NCBI GenBank assembly: GCA_030432295.1
Contig: JAUIHI010000030.1
Coordinates: 1-64,000, forward strand
Direction of reading: 5' to 3'
Source of the DNA: Anaerolineae bacterium
Lineage (GTDB): Bacteria > Chloroflexota > Anaerolineae > Caldilineales > Caldilineaceae
DNA length: 64,000 nt
Part shown: positions 7,371 to 24,042 of the stretch, piece after piece
Numbering within the stretch: position 1 is the stretch's first letter
Layout of the letters: each line of letters starts with the position of its first letter
Program-made: the position numbers and the translations under genes
Notes under the pieces: generated by a model
Told to the model about the DNA's origin: nothing
Seen by the model: the letters and a program-made list of their open reading frames with translations, nothing else
Databases searched by the model: none

Positions 7371-7625
7371 GAGGTATTGGATATTGGGTATTTGGCAGTG
7401 GTATTTGAGGGGCATAAGTTGAGTCTACTGCAAAACCGAGTTTTTTGTGCAGATCGCCCGGGTTTCCAGGAGTGGTTCGATCTCAAAAACTCGGTTTTTA
7501 GCCTCTTTGCAGTGGAGTCATAAGTGAAAAGTGAGCAGTGACCAGTTATCAGTTGCGGTTGCGAGACCCACTGATAACTGGTCACTGCTCACTTTCGATC
7601 TGCAAATATCCAATACCCAATATCT
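7371..7625. repeat. Compound palindromic intergenic region
   Basis: The gap between two convergent genes is almost entirely repeat. The outer arms (7374-7396 and 7602-7623) are related TATTGGGTATT-type units in opposite orientation. Inside lies an ACTGCAAA...CCGAG element (7419-7524), listed separately. Next to it is a perfect 26-bp inverted repeat, 7528-7553 with 7570-7595 and a 16-base loop. The region could act as a bidirectional terminator, but it has no T-run. Confidence 0.8.
7419..7524. mobile_element. Dispersed ACTGCAAA repeat, uninterrupted copy
   Basis: An element of about 105 bp with imperfect terminal inverted repeats: TTGAGTCTACTGCAAA on the left, its near-complement TTTGCAGTGGAGTCATAA on the right. 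It also has inner arms CCGAGTTTTTTG and CAAAAACTCGG. A second copy at 22191-22477 matches it almost base for base but is interrupted by a 172-bp insertion. There is no coding capacity, so it is MITE-like. Confidence 0.75.
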
Positions 7626-21680: not shown

Positions 21681-22160
21681 TTGCCTATCACCAAAAATAG
21701 CGTCGTCGCCTTTGCCTACACCCTCACCGACGACGAGGGCGAAGTCATCGACAGCGCCGACACCCAGAACCCCCTGGCCTATCTCCACGGCCACAGCCAA
21801 CTGATCCCTGGGATGGAAAATGCCCTGTCCGGTCGGGAAGTGGGGGACAGCTTCAGTATCGTCCTGCCCCCGGCAGAAGCCTATGGCGTCTACGACGAGA
21901 ATCTGGCCGGAGCGGTGCCCCGCTCGGCTTTTGAGGGTGTGGATACAGTGGAAGTGGGGATGCAGTTCCAGATGGAATTTCCAGGTGGACTGCGCGTAGT
22001 CACAGTGAGCAATGTGGATGACCAGCACGTGACGGTGGACGGCAATCATCCCCTGGCCGGGGAGACCCTGCATTTCGACATCGAAGTCGTCTCTATTCGG
22101 CCTGCCACGAAGGACGAGATCGAGCACCAACACGCCCACGGGCCGGGCGGCCACCACTGA
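21681..22160 (+). CDS. slyD: FKBP-type peptidyl-prolyl isomerase, SlyD-like
   Basis: Cytoplasmic folding catalyst of 159 residues. The FKBP part starts VVAFAYTLTDDEGEVIDSA and contains LIPGMENALSGREVGD. The insert-in-flap chaperone domain follows (PAEAYGVYDE to VDGNHPLAGETL). A short His-rich tail (EHQHAHGPGGHH) resembles the metal-binding tail of SlyD, suggesting nickel or other metal binding. The start is TTG at 21681, fixed by AAAGGAG 8 bases upstream; there is no ATG before residue 50. Monocistronic, ending just before a large repeat region. Confidence 0.93.
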   Translation: MPITKNSVVAFAYTLTDDEGEVIDSADTQNPLAYLHGHSQLIPGMENALSGREVGDSFSIVLPPAEAYGVYDENLAGAVPRSAFEGVDTVEVGMQFQMEFPGGLRVVTVSNVDDQHVTVDGNHPLAGETLHFDIEVVSIRPATKDEIEHQHAHGPGGHH

Positions 22161-22190: not shown

Positions 22191-22477
22191 ATGAGTTTAC
22201 TGCAAAAACCGAGTTTTTTGTGCAGATCGCCCGGATTTCCAGGAGTGATTCGGTCTCAAAAACTCGGTTTTTAGCCTTTTTGGGCGTGGTTCATTTTGCC
22301 GTCAAACGATCTTTACAAATAGTGAGGAGTAAGCACACCGAGAGGAGTGCCGCACGCCCACGTGCGGCGATGACTCGACCACGCCCGGCACGTGGGCGTG
22401 CCTACTCCTCGTCTCGAATTGGTAAGATGCCGAACCCTTCCAATGAACCACGCCCCTTTTTGCAGTGGAGCCATAAG
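22191..22477. mobile_element. Dispersed ACTGCAAA repeat, copy interrupted by a 172-bp element
   Basis: Bases 22192-22282 match 7419-7509 of the intact copy almost exactly, and 22463-22477 resume with CAGTGGAGCCATAAG as in the intact copy. The intervening 172 bp plus one copy of the duplicated octamer are absent from copy 1. This is direct evidence of a later insertion. Confidence 0.8.
22283..22454. mobile_element. 172-bp MITE-like element with 13-bp TIRs and an 8-bp target duplication
   Basis: Terminal inverted repeats GGCGTGGTTCATT (22283-22295) and AATGAACCACGCC (22442-22454) are exact complements. CCTTTTTG flanks the element on both sides (22275-22282, 22455-22462). Inside are two nested inverted repeats: GAGGAGTAAGCAC (22324-22336) with GTGCCTACTCCTC (22398-22410), and GCACGCCCACGTGC (22352-22365) with 22388-22401. 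There is no ORF of useful size. It must have been moved by a transposase encoded elsewhere; the 8-bp duplication fits several DDE families and does not identify one. Confidence 0.85.
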
Positions 22478-22550
22478 ATGGAACACCGATTCAATCTGTG
22501 AAAATCTGTATTGGTCAAGATGAGGATGGAATAAGCTGGACGCAGATAAA

Positions 22551-22596
22551 CGCAGATAGACGCTGATTTTTGACTCTGAATCAGCGTCTATCTGCG
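22551..22596. repeat. CGCAGATAGACGCTGATT hairpin
   Basis: A perfect 18-bp inverted repeat (22551-22568 and 22579-22596, loop 10). It is preceded by a second, partial unit (GACGCAGATAAA). The rest of 22463-22749 holds short CTGTGAAAATCTGTG-type units and no gene that I can see. Confidence 0.75.
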
Positions 22597-22749
22597 TCCC
22601 CTTCCTTTTCCAGCATCCTCCTGACCATTGCACAATCTGTGAAAATCTGTGTCATCTGTTGATGATTTTCGCCGTTATCGGTGTCAGCCGGTTGTGTTGC
22701 CTAAACTGCGGGTCACGTGGCCGGGGCGTAGGGGCGATTCCGTCGTATT

Positions 22750-24042
22750 CTACTTGGCCGGTGGCTGCAGCAGTTCTGCTGGCACATTGGGTTGCCCATT
22801 TAGGGTGAGCAAAAATGCTTTCAGCGCGCCAAGCTGCTCTGCTGTAAAGTCCAGCGGGAGTAGATCCGAGTGGCCGGGGAAGGCGGGCGGCGCGGCATTG
22901 TAGTGGACCAGCACAGCGTCCAGATCAGCCAGACTCCCGTTGTGCATATAGGGGGCCGTTTGGCCTACATTGCGCAGGCTGGGGGTTTTGAACGCGCCTC
23001 TCAATTCAATACCTTCCAGTTTGATAAAGCGCAATTCCTGGCAGGAGGGAGCAGGGGCATCGCTGAAGTCCCCCAGACAATTGAAGGGATCGTCCCTGGC
23101 CTGGCTCGCTCCGTCAATTCGACCGCTGTCCAGAACTTCGTCGGGAGTCCCTGTCAGCCCGATATTGTGAAATGTCCCATTGGAAAAGAGCGGCCCATTG
23201 TGACAATCGGTGCAGTTGGCCTCGCCGATAAAAAGACGCAGGCCGGTCGCCTCCTCTCGGGTGAAAAGAGAATTCATCTGCTCGGTGTCGTTAGCAGCCA
23301 CAGCTTGCGCATAGTCGTCGAAGCGACTGCGGCCCGGCAGGATACGCCGCTCGTAGGCGGCAAGGGCTTTGCCGATATTGGCATAGACCACATCGATCTG
23401 TGTCTGGTCTGCCTGGGACATACCCGCCCAGGCAGACTGTTCTTCGTCGTTGCCAAAGGGTCCAGCCGTCGGGGGGAAGGCGCTGGGATCAGAAATGTCT
23501 GGCAGGGGGCCAAAAATGGCTTCGTAGGGCTGGCGATAAAACGCCGCCACTCTCTGGGCATATTGGGCACGGGTCCCGCTGTGCTCCACAGCCGCCTCCA
23601 GGGGTGTCAGCGCCTGTGCCCATTGGCTGTCCCGCCGACCATCCCAGTAGAACCAGGCGTTATAGGCCGTGCCCACAATTGTCGGCGTATGTCGTTTGGT
23701 TGTGCCCCGGCCCACATCTGCGCGTACCAGCCCATCGGTGAAGTAGCGATCGGGCTGGTGGCAACTGGCACAGGCAACCGCGTCGTCGCCGCTGAATCGT
23801 GCATCGAAAAAGAGCGCGTGGCCCAGTTCTGCGGCCCGAGAATCGTCGCCCACCCTATTGGATGGGTCGGGTGGCAGGGGGGGCAAGGTGTCAATAGATA
23901 GGGAAGCGATGATGGCGCGCTGCTCATCGCTCCAGGCGTGGGGCGCAGATGCCCCCGGTAGCCATCCACTGAGCGCGGCCACTCCCAGGCCTGTCAGGGA
24001 GACAAGCAAAAGCGCGACAGTAAGAAGACTTGATTTTTTCAT
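22750..24042 (-). CDS. Di-heme cytochrome c peroxidase / MauG-family protein
   Basis: An exported 430-residue protein with a signal peptide (residues 1-25). Two c-type haem motifs are clear: C91-A-S-C94-H95 (CASCHQPDRYFTDG) and C277-T-D-C280-H281 (CTDCHNGPLFSNG). This spacing and the GTLHN-like FHNIGLTG segment match bacterial di-haem peroxidases and their MauG relatives. It would reduce peroxide, or oxidise a protein or organic partner, outside the membrane. It begins 2 bases after the stop of the YtkA-like lipoprotein gene, so both are one operon. No dedicated electron donor is encoded beside it. Confidence 0.9.
   Translation of the reverse strand: MKKSSLLTVALLLVSLTGLGVAALSGWLPGASAPHAWSDEQRAIIASLSIDTLPPLPPDPSNRVGDDSRAAELGHALFFDARFSGDDAVACASCHQPDRYFTDGLVRADVGRGTTKRHTPTIVGTAYNAWFYWDGRRDSQWAQALTPLEAAVEHSGTRAQYAQRVAAFYRQPYEAIFGPLPDISDPSAFPPTAGPFGNDEEQSAWAGMSQADQTQIDVVYANIGKALAAYERRILPGRSRFDDYAQAVAANDTEQMNSLFTREEATGLRLFIGEANCTDCHNGPLFSNGTFHNIGLTGTPDEVLDSGRIDGASQARDDPFNCLGDFSDAPAPSCQELRFIKLEGIELRGAFKTPSLRNVGQTAPYMHNGSLADLDAVLVHYNAAPPAFPGHSDLLPLDFTAEQLGALKAFLLTLNGQPNVPAELLQPPAK

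Follow-up and report, generated by a model that had tools for sequence, protein, structure and literature searches.

That a REP can lie within a MITE is already known from QMITE2 of Coxiella burnetii (PMC5896051; reviewed in PMC10969869). According to the available portions of the primary paper, the QMITE2 element measures 150-190 bp, has TIRs and direct repeats of 7-11 bp, and contains a REP as its palindromic interior; its truncated copies resemble bare REPs, and the REP acts as a landing site for another element (PMC5896051). REPINs are inverted doublets of REP hairpins, and the same hairpins flank the RAYT gene (PMC3116915, PMC2817692). The foot of canonical REPs is GT[AG]G, and these REPs are mobile as bare doublets (PMC3116915, PMC2817692). 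In the short REPs of TnpA-REP subclass 2.5, a spacer of 1-2 nt separates the tetranucleotide from a short stem, foot and stem together measuring 10-13 nt (PMC6006769). Accessible sections of a further study describe the GTAG and CGTC REP families and TIRtrons as small tagged palindromes and some RAYT genes with unrelated flanking TIRs (PMC3733652).

The locus described here lies in a 64,000-nucleotide stretch of an Anaerolineae genome (assembly GCA_030432295.1, contig JAUIHI010000030.1), the whole of which is referred to as the window. Its inserted element, MITE-A, resembles QMITE2 in being a MITE with TIRs, direct repeats and a REP-like interior (PMC5896051), and the core of MITE-A is similar to REPINs in consisting of tagged hairpins in an inverted doublet (PMC3116915, PMC2817692, PMC6006769). 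However, the REP of QMITE2 is of the GTAG type and, in the available text of that paper, is not common to several MITE families and comes with no mention of RAYT (PMC5896051), whereas the MITE-A core has a GGAG foot, occurs in several shells and has arms that match those flanking RAYT genes in two other genomes. Unlike canonical REPs, the MITE-A doublet is enclosed in an element with TIRs and a target site duplication (TSD), and its GGAG foot is followed by a spacer of 3-4 nt; because the foot is GGAG instead of GT[AG]G, the core was not filed as a GTAG REP. The arm, at 4+3+5 = 12 nt, falls within the size of subclass 2.5, but its foot letters differ and its spacer is 3-4 nt long (PMC6006769). 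The GTAG and CGTC tags are both unlike this arm, and "GGAG" has 0 occurrences in the accessible part of the paper on these families (PMC3733652). In our assessment, MITE-A is very probably a DDE-type MITE that was inserted into an older repeat (R2) and was built around a REP doublet, the matching RAYT of which is missing from this genome.

The inserted element and its host repeat

MITE-A is a non-coding element of 172 bp at positions 22283-22454 (+ strand), delimited by direct reading together with end and element searches. Direct reading and a repeat search place its left TIR, GGCGTGGTTCATT, at 22283-22295 (+ strand) and its right TIR, the exact reverse complement of the left one, at 22442-22454 (- strand), so that the two form an exact inverted match of 13 bp. 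The two copies of the 8-bp TSD CCTTTTTG lie at 22275-22282 and 22455-22462 (both + strand; direct reading and TSD measurement). Inside the element are two REP-like arms in inverted orientation. Arm 1 (22344-22365, + strand) consists of the foot GGAG, the spacer TGCC, and the stem GCACG, loop CCCA and stem CGTGC, and arm 2 (22388-22408, - strand) has the same foot, stem and loop with the spacer TAG. Comparison of MITE-A copies also identified an extra foot-like unit, GAGGAGTAAGCACACCGA, at 22323-22341 (+ strand), one of a set of ~19-bp units. Folded as single-stranded DNA, the element reaches -50.4 kcal/mol compared with -25.4 +/- 3.0 kcal/mol for shuffled sequences (z of -8.2), and none of 200 shuffles was as good.

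The locus is intergenic and flanked by convergent genes, an FKBP-type isomerase gene ending at 22160 (+ strand) and a di-haem cytochrome c peroxidase gene at 22750-24042 (- strand). No known RNA family was found at its gathering score between 22150 and 22560, where four weak matches all scored below it.

The host repeat R2 is present in two copies in the window. R2 copy 2 (locus L063, 22193-22472, + strand) is interrupted by MITE-A and measures 280 bp between its ends, corresponding to 100 + 172 + 8 bp, whereas R2 copy 1 (locus L047, 7421-7519, + strand) is an unbroken, empty site of 99 bp. The repeat has the ends GAGTYTACTGC...GCAGTGGAGYC, which read GAGTCTACTGC...GCAGTGGAGTC at the measured loci, and a search with it gave 43 match rows with a typical copy of 99-102 bp. 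Measurements were obtained for 28 of 30 fetched loci; L065 and L069 are poorly placed. Of the 28, 24 have an insert-free span of 99-112 bp, against the 280 bp of the window copy. R2 is flanked by short direct repeats that vary in length between about 5 and 8 bp, as with ATAGAAT at L048; together with the defined ends they indicate that R2 itself is MITE-like, and the arrangement in the window is a MITE nested in a MITE-like repeat. At least two further R2 copies (L067 and L068, on contigs C18 and C9 of this genome) have been split by a different repeat, the ends of which resemble TTGTACTGGTCAACGGGATGGTGGAAT; nesting thus recurs in this genome, and R2 is a repeated landing site. Nested insertion of this kind is ordinary MITE behaviour.

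A first-pass annotation of the sequence had described a 172-bp insert with exact 13-bp TIRs and an 8-bp duplication, and direct reading and the repeat search agree with it to the base. Its interpretation as a filled and an empty site holds as well, as other dispersed MITE-A copies have 8-bp TSDs and the R2 copy lacking the insert is unbroken; the intact copy, which it had placed at 7419-7524, lies slightly inside those limits. The three layers of repeats that it had proposed can now be given as the MITE-like R2, the inserted MITE and the inner palindromes forming a REP-like doublet.

Separately, a degenerate palindromic stretch (TGTATTGGTCAAGATGAGGATGGAA ... TTCCAGCATCCTCCTGACCATTGCAC) adjoins the MITE-A locus at 22508-22634 of the window. 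It resembles the ends of the third repeat, the one splitting R2 at L067 and L068, and is likely another old MITE family.

The MITE-A family and the search for its transposase

Across the 6.72-Mb genome, the 13-bp end of MITE-A has 27 exact matches, or 47 if one mismatch is allowed, compared with 2 for the reversed control pattern, which excludes a chance repeat. A BLAST search with the whole element returned 45 match rows in the same genome. Once duplicates had been merged, both ends were present in 26 measurable copies; L037, L041, L045 and L046 gave no end pair, and a copy in another genome of the genus (L202) was not counted. The TSD is a perfect 8 bp in 15 of the 26 copies and matches at 7 or 8 of 8 positions in 20, while a good TSD is absent in the remaining 6; at control offsets, 0 of 162 reached 7 of 8, the best being 6 of 8. 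The 15 perfect TSDs resemble GAAWWTTC, four of them being GAAATATC. Copy lengths range from 149 to 191 bp with 153 bp the commonest (12 copies), and the 172- and 189/191-bp size classes represent the 153-bp class plus extra ~19-bp foot-like units. The family is thus short and non-coding, with TIRs, TSDs and dispersed copies, as is characteristic of MITEs. As MITE families go it is ordinary, and it has been active in this lineage.

When the exact 13-mer was searched across 46 genomes of the bacterial family, it was multi-copy in this genome only, so that the expansion is lineage-specific as far as tested. One real MITE-A copy of 153 bp, without a TSD, is present in a genome of the same genus (G002). 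The single 13-mer matches in G004, G006, G011, G051 and G052 are not accompanied by a MITE-A element, and ten fetched orphan near-matches to the end likewise showed no element structure in the sequence read.

Four copies in the own genome (L023, L024, L039 and L221) are inserted at the target GAAATATC within another intergenic repeat, GAAATATCCAATACCCAATA; with four copies in the same repeat target, MITE-A often lands in repeats.

The first-pass annotation had suggested a genome search with the element's termini for more copies and for a parent insertion sequence with matching TIRs. The former yielded the 26 both-ended copies; no such parent was found in this assembly by an end-pair scan and searches for four Pfam families. 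Briefly, among the matches of the 13-bp end in this genome, no two inverted A-type ends, allowing one mismatch, are separated by 0.7-3.5 kb. An origin of the MITE-A ends (shell A) from IS1, IS256-type or IS1595-type elements was rejected, as PF03400, PF00872 and PF12762 each have 0 matches in this genome, and an IS4/IS5-type origin was likewise set aside, none of the six matches of PF01609 having A-type ends. From the TIRs and the TSD, we infer that the transposase acting on MITE-A is of the DDE type.

A REP-like core within different shells

The inner palindrome of MITE-A is not confined to its own ends. At L081 and L085 of the same genome it is enclosed by a different shell, which has GGGTGTGTTC as its ends and shows duplications of 9 bp. 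If two mismatches are allowed, this genome contains the arm pattern GAGTRRGCACGCCCWCGTGC 63 times and the reversed pattern 0 times, and the core doublet occupies about 37 sites by our own count; 63 arms fall short of the more than 100 copies per genome that are usual for REPs. In the genome collection, the exact pattern was found in 46 stretches from ten MAGs, which by title are eight Chloroflexota-named MAGs (Caldilineaceae, Litorilinea, Anaerolineae, Anaerolineales, Thermoflexales and Chloroflexi), the unclassified RI_153, which alone holds 22 of the stretches, and one Armatimonadetes MAG, the single match of which looks like coding DNA. Viral contigs gave 0 matches.

An automatic end search around these cores distinguished shell A (own genome) with a TSD of 8 bp, shell B with a TSD of 9 bp (without mismatch in L045, L046 and L086), and shell C with the ends CAATGTCATTAAGTTAAG and a TSD of 10 bp (without mismatch in L088 and L095). 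Of the 46 stretches, 36 lie within shell-like sequence, compared with 20 pattern hits in 429 control regions; the loose A pattern accounts for hits in 15 of these 429 regions, and the "A+B" label of L086 was therefore not used. Shell C accompanies 17 of the 22 RI_153 stretches and shell B 13 of the 14 ACE_CHL9 stretches, whereas none of the three shells was found at 10 of the 46 stretches or at L084 of the own genome.

Across these contexts the core keeps its build of two inverted arms, each having a GGAG foot that a spacer of 3-4 nt separates from a 5-bp stem with a 4-nt CCC[A/T] loop. Among 16 representatives, chosen so that each shell and genome contributed one or two, the common letters run from the GGAG foot to the end of the hairpin, and similarity between shells ends at the foot. 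Conservation within the arm pattern is partly owed to selection by that pattern, but the G preceding it is conserved though not required, and in the partner arms, to which the selection did not apply, the two sides of the stem change together (GCACG/CGTGC, GCACC/GGTGC, GGCATC/GATGCC) with loop and foot kept. The interior of MITE-A therefore reads as a REP doublet, REPIN-like, and not as degenerate IS sequence.

MITEs usually originate by internal deletion of an insertion sequence. If MITE-A had arisen by this usual route, its palindromes would be merely decayed subterminal repeats, and the ATCTTTACAA-type subterminal sequence common to the extended left and right ends is in keeping with it. 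The same arms are nevertheless joined to unrelated ends in other genomes, and no parent was found; internal deletion, already disfavoured by the shared core, is thus a very unlikely origin for MITE-A.

RAYT genes and the origin of MITE-A

Since REPs and REPINs are likewise built from a foot and a short hairpin, arranged as inverted doublets, Y1 transposases were examined. The set comprised 7 matches in this genome, at six places, and 24 in nine core-bearing genomes, the 31 loci corresponding to 30 places because L162 and L166 overlap. In RI_153, arm doublets lie on both sides of one Y1 gene (L188), the 177-aa product of which is a REP-associated tyrosine transposase (NF047646, 115 bits against a cut-off of 80). 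Its sole close relative among the 31 loci, L187 of a Litorilinea MAG with 70% identity, lies between five copies of GGAGAAAGCATCCTCAGATGC and a single GGAGAGA version, an arrangement of the same build with a different stem. Motifs of the form GGAG-N3-stem-loop number 6 at L187 and 3 at L188, with none at the 29 remaining Y1 loci, over a background of 2 in 92.8 kb that includes L063 with the window's own core; this link concerns two loci and was tested after the motif was known, the L187 flanks not having been used in defining it. Among the seven own-genome Y1 matches (six places), no RAYT is flanked by arms, and their best identity to the L188/L187 type is 28%, so that none is a close relative. 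Hairpins flanking a RAYT gene, as expected of a REP or REPIN, are accordingly found in two other genomes and not in this one.

Beside the RAYT gene of L187 (genome G045, locus 1016-1260), five tandem units of ~52 bp with a GGAG-foot hairpin alternate with CGGAGGGAACATCC, which looks like a REP array.

These data also bear on whether the core is a REP at all. It could instead be a hairpin kept for a function, such as a bidirectional terminator, an RNA stabiliser or a site for a host protein, and acquired by unrelated MITEs because it makes their insertions tolerable. Such a role would fit the occurrence of one hairpin in several shells, the position of the window copy between convergent genes and the pairing kept through stem changes. 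A terminator, however, needs the hairpin alone, yet foot, loop and stem letters are common across genomes; moreover, no T run follows the arms in the window copy, and arms of like build flank two orthologous RAYT genes but no other Y1 gene tested. A functional hairpin that is not a REP is consequently judged unlikely.

With the core read as a REPIN, MITE-A is most likely a chimera, in which the shell of a double-strand transposon has grown around, or been invaded by, the REPIN. A cut-and-paste transposase, presumably of the DDE type, would recognise the GGCGTGGTTCATT ends and move MITE-A in trans, making an 8-bp staggered cut in GAAWWTTC-like targets; in the window, the element would have landed in the CCTTTTTG of the older MITE-like repeat R2. 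As a search of this genome revealed no matching RAYT, MITE-A would now spread by its shell.

Two routes fit the data, namely repeated capture of the REPIN by different transposon ends and exchange of shells at the core. Judged against shuffles, the C ends resemble neither those of A (562 of 1000) nor those of B (260 of 1000), which argues for more than one capture, whereas there is a weak similarity between the ends of A and those of B (9 of 1000). In a single case, L119 of a Litorilinea MAG (CAMDQF010000094.1), one core joins a B-type left end (scoring 36 against B and 24 against A) to an A-type right end (39 against A and 16 against B), each assignment having been equalled by 0 of 1000 shuffles. 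L119 lacks a TSD, as expected of a recombinant, and argues that shell exchange happens as well.

The hybrid and the weak A/B similarity would also suit descent of all shells from one MITE, the outer ends of which diverged or recombined at an identical core with no repeated capture of a REPIN. Under such descent, neither the C ends, unlike A or B and with TSDs of 10 bp instead of 8 or 9, nor the 10 of 46 stretches and L084 that show none of the three shells would be expected, and we regard it as rather doubtful. Returning to capture of the REPIN, a broader generalisation is offered tentatively: REPINs of a GGAG-foot RAYT clade might serve as a portable core on which unrelated double-strand transposon ends assemble repeatedly, giving dual-mobility chimeras (a Y1 core in a DDE shell) that could swap shells by recombination at the core and outlive the loss of the RAYT.

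A full-text search of open-licence papers returned nothing on REP-cored MITEs in Chloroflexota, no GGAG-foot REP class and no REP doublet common to several MITE families with an A/B hybrid. As far as could be found, the modular REPIN core in several shells is therefore new, while a REP-bearing MITE itself has precedent. These observations bear on two poorly known matters, the source of bacterial MITE interiors and the rise of MITE families without a visible parent, and a REP core common to several shells suggests that MITEs can be built on REPINs and not by IS deletion. They also extend RAYT-linked REPs to a GGAG-foot class, mostly in Chloroflexota, and suggest that a REP lineage may persist without its own transposase by riding a different transposition system.

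As a minor observation, the core doublet also occurs at about 249950-250070 on contig C39 of the own genome (L222), where it lies in yet another shell with the ends TGTCGTGTCA, possibly a further MITE family in the same genome.
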